This document shows positions 3,894-26,099 of a stretch of DNA of 36,290 nt, one piece after another. The notes beneath the pieces are model-generated. The model saw only the letters and a list, made by a program, of their open reading frames with translations, was not told the DNA's origin and searched no databases. The stretch is from contig JAISUZ010000066.1 of NCBI GenBank assembly GCA_031271785.1, positions 1 to 36,290 of the forward strand, given 5' to 3'. The position numbers and the translations under genes were made by a program. This stretch comes from Fibrobacter sp. GTDB lineage: Bacteria; Fibrobacterota; Fibrobacteria; Fibrobacterales; Fibrobacteraceae. The stretch's first letter is position 1, and each line of letters opens with the position of its first letter.

Positions 3894-3944
3894 GGGTGGG
3901 GGAGGCCTCCCCCTCGCTTCAGCCCGGGATCACCGCGGTTTCTT
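3894..3944 (+). repeat. Repeat family A, partial copy A1 (near aspS promoter)
   Basis: It shares the left end of family A: a GGGGG...CCCCC hairpin, then TCGCTTCA(A/G)CCCGGG and (A/C)TCGCGG-like sequence. In this copy the hairpin is a perfect 16-bp palindrome, GGGGGAGGCCTCCCCC (3898-3913). Similarity to the other copies stops near 3944. It starts about 15 bp upstream of a TACTAT (-10-like, minus strand, 3874-3879), so it occupies the place of the aspS -35 box. Confidence 0.65.
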
Positions 3945-4020
3945 AACTTAAGTGCTTCGGACATAAAAATTAGGGACAAAGTGGCGATGAATTTGTCATG
4001 GCGAGAGCAGAGCCCGCGGC

Positions 4021-4203
4021 CATCCGGACTCTGTATTATTCCTTACCGGATCGCCGCACGCGTTCCGCGTTCGCGATCACATTATATGACCTTACGAACA
4101 AGGGGGGATGCGCAAAACCGGGCGCGGGTTCCGGCGACTGAAAGAAGCCGAATCAGAACCCGCGATTACCCCGGGTTGAAGCGAGGGGGACGTGCCCCCT
4201 CCT
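4021..4203 (-). repeat. Repeat family A, full copy A2
   Basis: This 183-bp copy is nearly identical, in reverse orientation, to 10876-11058. Read on the minus strand it has a GGGGG-CACGT-CCCCC hairpin, then TCGCTTCAACCCGGGG. A 9-bp stem follows (plus strand CGCGGGTTC 4123-4131 with GAACCCGCG 4156-4164), then a GGTTTTGCGCATCCCCCC block and a GCGAACGCGGAACGCGTGCGG block. With A1 it forms inverted ends of a ~310-bp segment (3894-4203). A frame open through it would encode a peptide, but the same peptide appears at the other copy only because the DNA is repeated; I see no gene. The rest of the gap (4204-4359) shows no clear promoter and no TPP riboswitch. Confidence 0.85.
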
Positions 4204-10875: not shown

Positions 10876-11058
10876 AGGAGGGGGCACGTCCCCCTCGCTT
10901 CAACCCGGGGTAATCGCGGGTTCTGATTCGGCTCCTTTCAGTCGCCGGAACCCGCGCCCGGTTTTGCGCATCCCCCCTGTTCGTAAGGTCATGTAATGTA
11001 ATGTCATCGCGAACGCGGAACGCGTGCGGCGATCCGGTAAGGAATACAAGTCCGGATG
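10876..11058 (+). repeat. Repeat family A, full copy A3 (between ffh and rpsP)
   Basis: A 183-bp copy matching 4021-4203 in inverted orientation with few differences. It has the GGGGG-CACGT-CCCCC hairpin, the 9-bp stem CGCGGGTTC (10915-10923) / GAACCCGCG (10948-10956), the GGTTTTGCGCATCCCCCC block and the GCGAACGCGGAACGCGTGCGG block. It occupies most of the ~500-bp gap 10665-11167. The remaining parts (10721-10875 AT-rich, 11059-11167) show no gene. An SRP RNA was looked for here and not found. Confidence 0.85.
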
Positions 11059-11167
11059 CCCCCAAGCGATGCACCCCCCTTAAAGGTATTCGGATTATGC
11101 CCGTATATACATTTCCTTATTGTCGATTTGTTAGGGTGACCGTTTCAGGATCCGTTCCCTTAACTCT

Positions 11168-17483: not shown

Positions 17484-19976
17484 ATGAGTAAATGGATATT
17501 GCCATTATTCTTGGCGCTTTCGGTAAGCGCTATGGCTACACTCAATAAAGAGGGCTTAAAGGGTATCAATAAAACCCAGTCGGCTCAAAGCATGGGGCAT
17601 TCTAACCTTGCGATTTCGATCCTTGGGGATATCACCAACGATAACCGCGTGGTGAACGGGTATTTGGACCAAACCAATTTGGATCTTTCTCATTCCTATG
17701 CGGAGGTCAACGAATTTTGGGGTGTGAACGCCTATTTGGCTATCGGGCTTGGGATTTGGCATTACTTTGATTTCAGTATTATGCTTCCGATCTATTATGA
17801 AGATTTTTCCGTGAAGTATATCAACGGACCGACCGAAGTAAGCGGACTCCAAAATTCGGGACAAGGGAATATACGCCCCACGCTTAAAATCCGGATTCCG
17901 CTCCCGGAAGACCAGATTTTTGATGCCGCTTTCGTTATCGGCGGTGATTTCGGTACTTCCGCTCCGAATAAAAATAAAGGGCTTTGGATGCGCGAGCCCG
18001 AATTTGTGGATAAAAATACGCGTCAGGTGCAGGCGTTCGGTTTTCAGGAAACCACGATCCGCGCCAAACTCGCGGCTACGGTTGATTTTGGCAAAATGGA
18101 TAACGGCGTTCCGTTTCAGTTCCATTTGAACGGCGGTTATCGTCACCAGTATGACGCTCCGCAATACAACGATATTTACAGTTTCAGCGCCGCCGCCGAA
18201 TGGCAGCCGCTTCCGGTGCTTTCTCTCTTTGCCGAATATTATGTGGATTTTATGCCTGAAATTGCAAGCGAGACTCTCGGGAATCAAGTGCTTGATTTAA
18301 ACGAAGTATCTGCCGGTCTTGTATTCCATTTGCCGGCCGGTCTTGATCTCCATGCCGGTATGCACATTTACCTCGGCACGGATGATCTTTATCTGACGAA
18401 TCTTCAAACGCTTGAAAACGAATCGCGTCTGATTACTTACAGCGGTCGCGTGAATCCCGGATTTTACGGGTACGGCGGTATCACCTGGTCGATGTTCCTG
18501 ATTCCGCTGGACAAAGACGGCGACGGCGTGAAAGACAGCGATGATCAATGCCCGGATGAATACGGTTCGGTTCAAAACTCCGGTTGCCCGTGGGCTAATC
18601 CGGATATTGACGAAGACGGTATCTGCGATGCCTGGGTAGCGGAAAAAGGTCTTTTCGGTGAATTTGCCGATATTTGCGATGGTATTGATAAATGCCCGAA
18701 CGAAGCCGGCGACGGTGACGACGGCTGTCCGTTGGATAATCCGGATGTGGACGGCGACCGCGTTTGCGATGCCTGGGTTTCTCAGAAAAACATGACTTCT
18801 TACTTTGCGGATGTTTGCTCCGGTGTGGATAACTGCCCGGCTCAGAAAGGTCCCGAATCGAACTTCGGCTGCCCGGATGACAATCCGGATGCCGATGGCG
18901 ACGGACTTTGCGATCCGTGGGTTTCTCAGAAGAACCGTTTGAAAGATTTCGCCAATGTTTGTAAGAGTTACGACGAATGCCCAGGCGAAGCCGGTCCTGT
19001 GGCGAACAAAGGCTGTCCTTGGCCTGACCCGGATACCGACGGCGACGGCATTTGCGATACATGGGTGACGGAAAAGAAAATGGGTTACTTCTTTGAAACC
19101 ACAAAAGAACCGGGTGTGAAACACTGTAAAGGTTTGGACAAGTGTCAGTACGAATACGGCGTGGCCGATAACGACGGTTGTCCGATGGAAAACCCGGATT
19201 CGGATGCCGACGGTATCTGTGATGCCTGGGTTTCTCAGAAGGGTATGCAGGAACGTTTCGATGATATTTGTACCGGCATTGACCGTTGCCCGGCAGAACC
19301 GGGTTTAGCAGCGGCGCAAGGCTGCCCGATGGACAATCCGGATATTGATGCCGACAGCGTTTGTGCGCCTTGGGTCGCTGAAAAAGGAATGTTCGAAGCC
19401 TTTAAGGATATTTGTTCGGGAATCGACAAATGCCCGAGTGAAGCCGGCGATCCTTCTAACGACGGCTGCCCGATGGATAATCCGGATACCGATGCCGACG
19501 GCGTTTGCGACCCGTGGGTCACTCAAAAGAAGATGCTCAACCGCTTTAAGGATATTTGCGTGAATATGGATAGATGTCCGTTTGACCCGGGTTCCGTAGA
19601 AGGTAACGGCTGTCCGGCTCCGGTGATCGAAGAAAATGTGAAGCTCGAAGGCGTAACTTTCAAGAGCGGAAGCTCGGTTCTTGAACCGAATGCGAAGAAA
19701 GTGCTGAAAGATGTTGCCGAACAGCTTCTCGCACCGGAAAACAAGAATGTCCATATCGAAATTCACGGACATACCGATAACGTGGGCAAGAAAGCCAAGA
19801 ACAAAAAGCTTTCTCTGGACCGCGCTCAATCGGTGGTGAATTACCTTGCTTCTCAAGGGGTTCCGAAGAGCCGCATGGAAGCATTCGGACACGGCGATGA
19901 AGAACCGGTAGCCGATAACGCAACGAAGGAAGGTAAGGAACAAAACCGCCGCATTGAAATGCACCGCGTGGATTAA
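17484..19976 (+). CDS. OmpA-family outer-membrane protein with thrombospondin type 3 repeats
   Basis: An 830-residue protein. A signal peptide (WILPLFLALSVSAMA, cleavage near residue 18) is followed by ~320 residues of beta-barrel-like alternating sequence. From residue ~343 to ~711 run calcium-binding thrombospondin type 3 repeats: one short unit and seven units of ~48 residues with the pattern NPDxDxDGxCDxWVxxK...DICxGxDKCPxExG...GCP. The C-terminal ~110 residues are an OmpA peptidoglycan-binding domain (IEIHGHTDNVGKKAKNKKLS; NRRIEMHRVD). The likely role is to tie the outer membrane to peptidoglycan through a rigid Ca-loaded stalk, as in Fibrobacter-type OmpA proteins. Unit five has a 7-residue insertion and unit seven has CAPW in place of CDPW. 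A strong terminator follows. Confidence 0.92.
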   Translation: MSKWILPLFLALSVSAMATLNKEGLKGINKTQSAQSMGHSNLAISILGDITNDNRVVNGYLDQTNLDLSHSYAEVNEFWGVNAYLAIGLGIWHYFDFSIMLPIYYEDFSVKYINGPTEVSGLQNSGQGNIRPTLKIRIPLPEDQIFDAAFVIGGDFGTSAPNKNKGLWMREPEFVDKNTRQVQAFGFQETTIRAKLAATVDFGKMDNGVPFQFHLNGGYRHQYDAPQYNDIYSFSAAAEWQPLPVLSLFAEYYVDFMPEIASETLGNQVLDLNEVSAGLVFHLPAGLDLHAGMHIYLGTDDLYLTNLQTLENESRLITYSGRVNPGFYGYGGITWSMFLIPLDKDGDGVKDSDDQCPDEYGSVQNSGCPWANPDIDEDGICDAWVAEKGLFGEFADICDGIDKCPNEAGDGDDGCPLDNPDVDGDRVCDAWVSQKNMTSYFADVCSGVDNCPAQKGPESNFGCPDDNPDADGDGLCDPWVSQKNRLKDFANVCKSYDECPGEAGPVANKGCPWPDPDTDGDGICDTWVTEKKMGYFFETTKEPGVKHCKGLDKCQYEYGVADNDGCPMENPDSDADGICDAWVSQKGMQERFDDICTGIDRCPAEPGLAAAQGCPMDNPDIDADSVCAPWVAEKGMFEAFKDICSGIDKCPSEAGDPSNDGCPMDNPDTDADGVCDPWVTQKKMLNRFKDICVNMDRCPFDPGSVEGNGCPAPVIEENVKLEGVTFKSGSSVLEPNAKKVLKDVAEQLLAPENKNVHIEIHGHTDNVGKKAKNKKLSLDRAQSVVNYLASQGVPKSRMEAFGHGDEEPVADNATKEGKEQNRRIEMHRVD

Positions 19977-20024: not shown

Positions 20025-20042
20025 GTATGCCGTTACCTGGTT

Positions 20043-20145
20043 GGGGGCGGTCCCCCCTCGCTCCAACCGGCGAATTTCGCAGAACCTTCACCGGCTCCCA
20101 CTGGTCGCCGGGTTCTGCGCGTCGTTTTGCGCTACCCCGAAGGTA
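20043..20145 (+). repeat. Repeat family A, divergent copy A4
   Basis: It shares the layout of A2 and A3: GGGGG-CGGT-CCCCC hairpin, TCGCTCCAACC, a stem-loop with CGGCTCC...TCGCCGG in the loop, then GTTTTGCGC and a CCCC block. The stem is CGCAGAACC (20078-20086) / GGTTCTGCG (20111-20119), different bases from A2/A3 at most positions but still perfectly paired. After it, CGAAGGTATGATCTTCG forms another small hairpin (about 20138-20154). The stretch 20155-20291 shows no gene. Confidence 0.7.
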
Positions 20146-20291: not shown

Positions 20292-20466
20292 TGTGGCAGG
20301 GATGCGACCCGGACGGGCGGAGACGCGTTCGCGGCTCCGTTTTTGGCGGGGGCTCTTGCGCTCTATAGTGAAAACCAAATGGATCAGGATGGCGAGAGTG
20401 AGCGCAAGGTGGGTGCCGCCCCAAAAATGCAAGCCCGGTCCCGGAATGAAATGGAGGGAGCCACCC
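20292..20466 (+). repeat. Repeat family B, long copy B1
   Basis: It starts TGTGGCAGGGATGCGACCCG and ends GGAGGGAGCCACCC; the same ends occur inverted at 25984-26099. Shared internal hairpins are CCCGGACGGG and GGAGACGCG-TT-CGCGGCTCC. The middle is ~60 bp longer than in B2 and folds on itself: CTTGCGCTC pairs with GAGCGCAAG, flanked by GGCGG / CCGCC. No open frame here looks like a gene. The stretch 20467-20566 holds only a weak GATACG/CGTATC hairpin. Confidence 0.75.
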
Positions 20467-25983: not shown

Positions 25984-26099
25984 GGGTGGCTCCCTCCATT
26001 GTATTCCGGGACCGGGCTCGCATTTTCGTGGCAACAAGTTGCCTGCAAAAACGGAGCCGCGAACGCGTCTCCGCCCGTACGGGTCGCATCCCTGCCACA
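25984..26099 (-). repeat. Repeat family B, short copy B2 (abutting rph)
   Basis: On the minus strand it runs TGTGGCAGGGATGCGACCCG ... GGAGGGAGCCACCC, the same ends as 20292-20466. It keeps the palindrome CCCGTACGGG and the hairpin GGAGACGCG-TT-CGCGGCTCC. The middle is short: GGCAAC-TT-GTTGCC, a 6-bp hairpin. It fills the gap between the Omp85-type gene and rph, meeting the rph stop codon, where ACATTA-CCT-TAATGT is a further small palindrome. Confidence 0.75.

Follow-up and report, generated by a model that had tools for sequence, protein, structure and literature searches.

The intergenic DNA downstream of an OmpA-family gene (17484-19976) in a Fibrobacter contig raises the question of how a repeat comes to keep its hairpin while both hairpin arms differ in sequence between copies, and of what kind of element such a repeat might be. 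The original prediction, made on the 36,290-nt stretch that we analyzed as a whole (the window), held that the arms of one copy, A4, had changed together relative to those of copies A2 and A3, as selection on a hairpin would leave them. The assembly to which the window belongs comprises 2.28 Mb in 112 contigs and is 95.5% complete. Our preferred answer, to which we assign a probability of about 0.68, is that the repeat is a selfish, non-autonomous DNA palindrome whose frame is fixed while the sequence of its self-complementary stem is free, resembling the Rickettsia palindromic elements (RPEs) but spread across phyla.

Copies and covariation in the window's genome

The features of the window are listed below, with scores from R1, a covariance model built from 19 copies including A4.

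3898-3943, + strand: A1, a 5' fragment (hairpin 1, conserved box and 5' arms), from sequence and repeat search; the 3' half is absent
4018-4095, - strand: module B beside A2, from repeat search; outside the element
4103-4200, - strand: A2, full copy (R1, 112.9 bits)
10879-10976, + strand: A3, full copy (R1, 111.2 bits)
10988-11062, + strand: module B beside A3, which matches alone elsewhere in the genome; outside the element
20042-20139, + strand: A4, full intergenic copy of the element (R1, 93.8 bits, E = 3e-16)
20043-20057, + strand: hairpin 1 of A4, GGGGG-CGGTC-CCCCC, from sequence and fold
20069-20072, + strand: P2 5' arm of A4, GGCG, from the alignment; its partner is 20120-20123
20078-20086, + strand: P3 5' arm of A4, CGCAGAACC, from sequence; common to 12 of 60 copies
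20111-20119, + strand: P3 3' arm of A4, GGTTCTGCG, from sequence and fold; perfect complement of the 5' arm
20120-20123, + strand: P2 3' arm of A4, CGTC, from the alignment; the pairing with 20069-20072 includes one G.T

Inspection of the sequence bears out the stems as predicted: the arms of A4 (CGCAGAACC/GGTTCTGCG) are fully paired, the P3 arms of A2 and A3 are CGCGGGTTC/GAACCCGCG, and a GGGGG-N-CCCCC hairpin is present in all four pieces. A chance match of A4 is ruled out by its E-value of 3e-16, albeit under a model that includes A4, and by the repeat search preceding the model, which grouped A1, A3 and A4. The 183-bp unit that had been proposed for A2 and A3 has to be divided: the element proper spans ~98 bp in this genome, and the other half is module B (starting TGTCATCGCGAACGCGG...), a separate dispersed repeat also present on its own in the genome. 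A1 has hairpin 1, the box and the 5' arms and is a fragment without the second half of the stem. Module B (TGTCATCGCGAACGCGGAACGCGTGCGGCGATCCGG...ATGACA) is itself a second dispersed palindromic repeat, which often adjoins the element yet is independent of it.

The model finds 72 matches, dispersed over many contigs of the 2.28-Mb genome. Among 61 distinct copies, aligned by fitting to the model (which favors structure) and compared with shuffles that leave relatedness in, standard pairs occupy 96.8% of pair cells versus 79.3 ± 0.6% in the shuffles, both-sided changes number 283 against a shuffled mean of 89.5, with only 4 one-sided changes, and the covariation score is 0.429 versus 0.106. The observed pairing, both-sided count and covariation score are each reached in 0 of 500 shuffles, and sliding the partner by 1-3 columns lowers the paired cells of the 61 copies to 46-55%. 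When 19 copies are aligned with MAFFT, without fitting to the model, the picture is unchanged (59 both-sided versus 2 one-sided changes), and 57 copies from several phyla yield 98 both-sided changes versus 1. Hence, the joint change of arms claimed for A4 stands, far beyond the controls, but it is not a single compensatory replacement, the A4 stem being one of many types: 18 distinct P3 5' arms occur among 60 copies, in 24 combinations of P2 and P3, an event-like count, with P2, a 4-bp stem just outside P3, varying in step as well. The contrast of A4 with A2 and A3 is one between subfamilies, and the A4 stem is more frequent in the genome than any other type (12/60). Unpaired arms, the outcome that would have spoken against the prediction, are scarce elsewhere, with a perfect 9-bp P3 in 44 of the 60 copies, one mismatch in 9 and two to four in 7. 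Hairpin 1 covaries too, GGGGG/CCCCC alternating with GGGGA/TCCCC, and in two copies from Treponema ruminis (L234 and L237) the outer helix has an additional G in one arm and an additional C in the other. The copies fold better than their shuffles (z ~ -2.6). With respect to genes, sense copies within 60 nt after the stop of a long frame outnumber reverse ones by 27 to 6 among 62 copies of the window's genome. Intragenic copies were sought in this genome as well, and the frames spanning them looked spurious, leaving no convincing case.

A fixed frame across phyla, plasmids and single-stranded DNA phages

The main point lies outside the window, whose copies are the long-stem form of a wider element: its frame is common to phyla, plasmids and ssDNA phages, and it occurs in frame in enzymes. 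This one conserved frame spans Spirochaetota (including the completely sequenced T. ruminis), Fibrobacterota, Bacteroidota, sphingomonad plasmids and Microviridae. It reads GGGGG-hairpin-CCCCC-TCGCTNCARCC-(variable stem)-GKYTTNCGCTACCCCC, often followed by a third hairpin; the fuller consensus is GGGGGAAGTCTCCCCC-TCGCTNCARCC-stem-GKYTTNCGCTACCCCC-TCT-third hairpin, the last being GCGGGG..CCCCGCAACGCCCC or CCTAGGGG..CCCCTAAAACCCC. Hairpin 1 has the general form GGGGGA-NNNN-TCCCCC, the element is ~55-150 bp long, and a CTAC (GTAG on the other strand) at the hairpin foot is invariant in 57 copies. Within the window's family the model has matches in 95 of 111 genomes, at rough E-values, and the thirty of these loci that were displayed mostly have the same frame, with interiors of ~14-110 nt and unrelated stems (one, L036, is partly masked). 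In several long interiors the loop contains further, nested repeats, as with GTCATCCTGAGCG...TCGAAGGATC in L053 and L054. In T. ruminis, five loci (L240-L244) have a short variant with the middle GCGCCCACTTCGTTGGTCGCTACCC and without the TTCARCC box.

An exact-pattern scan of named genomes recovers, among the matches listed, Treponema from rumen, horse and termite, other Spirochaetaceae, Prevotellaceae, Bacteroidales, Fibrobacteres and Chitinispirillales. The distribution is patchy, with 76 of 393 Spirochaetota versus 1 of 395 Bacteroidota carrying the element in evenly drawn samples, and complete E. coli genomes have no copy at blastn sensitivity. Carriers can hold many copies: 45 at E<0.01 in complete T. 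ruminis, 46 in Treponema JC4, 148 in a Spirochaetaceae metagenome-assembled genome (MAG) and at least 150 in a Prevotellaceae MAG (G137). The copies of the latter are near-identical and many lie near contig ends, while the 394 other sampled Bacteroidota genomes are without the element; its abundance may reflect a recent burst, a transfer or a question of binning. Mobilizable soil plasmids of Sphingomonadaceae (L337, L347-L351) carry intergenic copies with variant boxes CTGAGNNCGAGCC and CNCTACCCCC, several on some plasmids. In Microviridae (L335, L336, L346, L356) the element is at the C-terminal end of a hypothetical protein gene, and a microvirus from yak feces reads as the full three-hairpin form; some related microviruses are without the element. 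The DNA pilot protein gene adjoins the element-bearing gene in L335, L336 and L356.

Turnover is also visible at single sites. In two Treponema genomes (L081 and L140) the same copy in a radical-SAM gene has the same odd hairpins 1 and 3 and a changed P2 loop region. In two other genomes (L148 and L168) an ABC-F gene has copies at one and the same position that differ in all three hairpins, with interiors of 47 and 8 nt, which would fit an in-situ replacement as well as a second insertion. The number of copies and their patchy occurrence suggest that the element is mobile. A search of the open-access literature on palindromic elements of Treponema, spirochaetes or Fibrobacter found no description of it. 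As to the prediction of a structured mobile or regulatory element not yet described, its first part holds for a dispersed, structured and probably mobile repeat without an Rfam match in the window, and a regulatory role as RNA is disfavored (see below). A family of this breadth makes it possible to test by what route such palindromes move and how frequently working proteins gain loops from mobile DNA, and the turnover of stems inside a fixed frame amounts to a natural experiment on DNA-level pairing.

Copies inside protein genes

In a six-frame check with flanks, which by its design is biased toward in-frame cases and includes a few doubtful frames, ~20 of 138 copies lie in a frame open through 240 bp on each side. 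In the complete T. ruminis genome, 8 of the 30 best-scoring copies are inside open frames. The T. ruminis inserts are in genes for the following proteins.

HsdS
DUF763-like protein (assigned by eye)
CarA (NF009475, 482 bits, cut-off 221)
FolE2 (272 bits, cut-off 215)
ABC-F ATPase (two inserts)
PriA (TIGR00595, 599 bits, cut-off 230)
Omp85-like protein (assigned by eye)
GltB

Among the 30 best-scoring copies of T. ruminis there is no visible out-of-frame gene break, a count that would miss gene halves of fewer than 110 codons. Were insertions into genes retained irrespective of frame, two in three would be expected out of frame and eight in-frame cases out of eight would have p ~1.5e-4; out-of-frame insertions into genes thus appear to be purged. 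Three T. ruminis loci that resembled broken genes (L231, L241 and L242) each turned out to be a pair of different neighboring genes. Stops are absent from most frames of the element, and these frames encode peptides, such as GESLPLAPAADASSATPSAGDTPATPP, that are rich in small residues and proline; an example from the GltB, FolE2 or PriA insert of T. ruminis is ...GESLPLAAAADASSATPSAG.... To judge from the open frames, the inserts are probably translated. Sense copies outnumber antisense copies inside genes in the six-frame check, an excess that is expected because one antisense frame has a stop.

The GltB insert supplies 40 residues versus a 4-residue turn in the B. subtilis enzyme. Across Treponema orthologs this loop is mostly empty: the element is present in T. 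ruminis and a second species (L255), and further Treponema hold in-frame peptides from other palindromic repeats there, suggesting that it may be a tolerant loop. An AlphaFold model of the segment has a mean pLDDT of 51, too low to interpret. The palindrome-like peptides in the GltB loop of different Treponema species (L247, L250, L251, L252, L254, L256) include EPVETT, SHAELVSAS and SHGFDFANAKS...NPCDN; the GltB match behind L247 contains a TAG.

Level of pairing, mode of spread and alternative readings

The pairing looks to be at the DNA level because G.U pairs are nearly absent. The variable pairs of the alignments labeled A1 and A2 comprise 3 G.T, 4 A.C and 441 Watson-Crick cells, and G.U makes up 0.7% of pairs in the element versus 6.4% (20/314) in tRNAs of the same loci (Fisher p = 1e-5, with only 15 tRNAs as a rough yardstick). 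A pair that switches between copies (columns 32/94 of the 61-copy alignment A3) is A-U in 36, G-C in 25 and G-U in none; in the wider set of 57 copies, two switching pairs have G-C, A-U and G-U counts of 42/15/0 and 39/17/0. A G.T on one DNA strand is equivalent to an A.C on the other, and their equal rarity fits DNA-level pairing or block replacement of arms rather than selection on RNA. We accordingly regard it as unlikely that the element is a structured RNA (a 3' UTR stabilizer, attenuator or sRNA) with its hairpins under selection. Folding above shuffles, the sense bias past stop codons in the window's genome and the combination of fixed boxes with a variable-length stem, as seen in many RNAs, are in its favor; the near-absence of G.U intermediates, with A.C mismatches equal to them or commoner, the lack of G-U at the switching pairs and the occurrence of both orientations within genes, including in-frame copies in protein genes, disfavor an RNA role. 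Compensatory changes passing through G.U intermediates, as in a structured RNA, are not what we see (4 one-sided versus 283 both-sided changes; G.U at 0.7% versus 6.4%), and none of 4227 Rfam models reaches its gathering threshold in the window or gives even a sub-threshold match over the copies. The sense bias after stops (27 versus 6 of 62) nevertheless hints at a transcript-linked insertion bias or role and counts against a purely selfish DNA element. A function restricted to gene 3' ends was considered and discarded, elsewhere copies occurring within genes in both orientations.

Of the hairpin selection "in RNA or extruded DNA" that had been predicted, the paired arms stand and the RNA alternative does not fare well; template switching would give the same pattern. 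A purely mutational origin of the pairing, by template switching or arm-to-arm conversion and without hairpin selection, is thus a serious if doubtful alternative. Both-sided changes with almost no half-way states are what wholesale copying of arms would produce, and template switching has been proposed for the concerted arms of nematomorph coding palindromes (PMC6649704). However, the boxes kept fixed across phyla indicate that something acts on the element, the paired R-Y position and the G-C/A-T switch in hairpin 1 are isolated single pairs rather than runs, and L234 and L237 have their extra G and C on opposite sides.

A REP-type element moved by a RAYT or IS200-like Y1 transposase is quite unlikely. 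REPs are imperfect hairpins with conserved mismatches and a GTAG/CTAC foot, and the element recalls them in its hairpin with conserved mismatches and its CTAC/GTAG foot, invariant in 57 copies. On the other side, Y1_Tnp (PF01797) was not found in five carriers (the window's genome, G000, and G136, G137, G139 and G143), all of them drafts in which single-gene gaps are possible and one of them with at least 150 copies; in T. ruminis, which has two Y1 genes, neither Y1 locus contains the element; and copies lie within genes. A Y1 transposase seems not to be required. Still less probable is a spread single-strand replication signal such as a primosome or primase site, to which multiple DNA hairpins and a presence in ssDNA phages and mobilizable plasmids would be natural: it leaves tens to at least 150 chromosomal copies and the in-frame genic copies unexplained, and related microviruses manage without the element. 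An attC-like integron recombination site would share the variable palindrome, fixed boxes and mismatches. It is extremely improbable, as none of the 140 rows in three alignments has the R'' (RYYYAAC) and R' (GTTRRRY) boxes and the copies are scattered over many contigs rather than in cassette arrays.

On the preferred reading of a selfish palindromic DNA element, the element would be moved as a folded single strand of DNA by an enzyme acting in trans. Insertions would survive between genes or in tolerant protein loops, the latter because most frames are without stops and encode peptides rich in small residues and proline, and harmful inserts would be purged. The stems could drift in sequence yet remain paired because the hairpin is needed, because template switching restores one arm from the other, or both. 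Neither a parent transposon nor a defined target duplication was found for the element; in Fibrobacter, where the flanks are rearranged, no clean empty site was found, and the filled and empty GltB orthologs are too divergent to fix the exact ends. More tentatively, we entertain the possibility of a previously undescribed cross-phylum family of hairpin DNA, probably carried by ssDNA phages and mobilizable plasmids, which would insert as folded single strands through a hairpin-recognizing enzyme and, with free turnover of its stem sequence, continually add in-frame peptides to proteins that are essential to gut bacteria.

To our knowledge, in-frame palindromic insertion in genes is known mainly from Rickettsia. 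RPEs are short many-copy palindromic repeats in frame inside unrelated metabolic genes (PMC10969869) and are reported to lose repeat identity over time (PMC6649704). With ~98 bp and 72 matches the element is a dispersed palindromic repeat close to the ~100-150 bp of RPEs, and it resides in frame in unrelated protein genes in T. ruminis, which was not seen in the window's genome. The likeness drawn here is one of form and location. Unlike RPEs, the element occurs in several phyla, plasmids and ssDNA phages, has fixed boxes around a free-sequence stem, and keeps its stems paired while they change. Nematomorph mitochondrial coding palindromes are likewise inverted repeats in genes with arms evolving in concert, for which template switching has been proposed (PMC6649704), but they are hairpins scattered through mitochondrial genes, whereas the element is a bacterial repeat family with conserved boxes. 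The REP/RAYT and attC systems each fail a defining feature: the former shares dispersed imperfect hairpins and a GTAG-type foot tetranucleotide and differs in the Y1 transposase, which was not found in the five draft carriers, the intragenic copies and the larger fixed frame of the element, and the latter shares a variable hairpin with fixed boxes and differs in its R'/R'' boxes and arrays. MITEs are similarly small, non-autonomous and dispersed, but have a parent transposon and a defined target duplication, neither of which was found for the element.

Two other repeats were observed in the window. Positions 20292-20466 and 25984-26099 match each other in inverted orientation, over 54 nt at 98% and over 49 nt at 90%, and are a candidate for another dispersed repeat, and the OmpA-family gene contains a 131-nt direct repeat in six copies (18582-19594), spaced mostly at ~144 nt.
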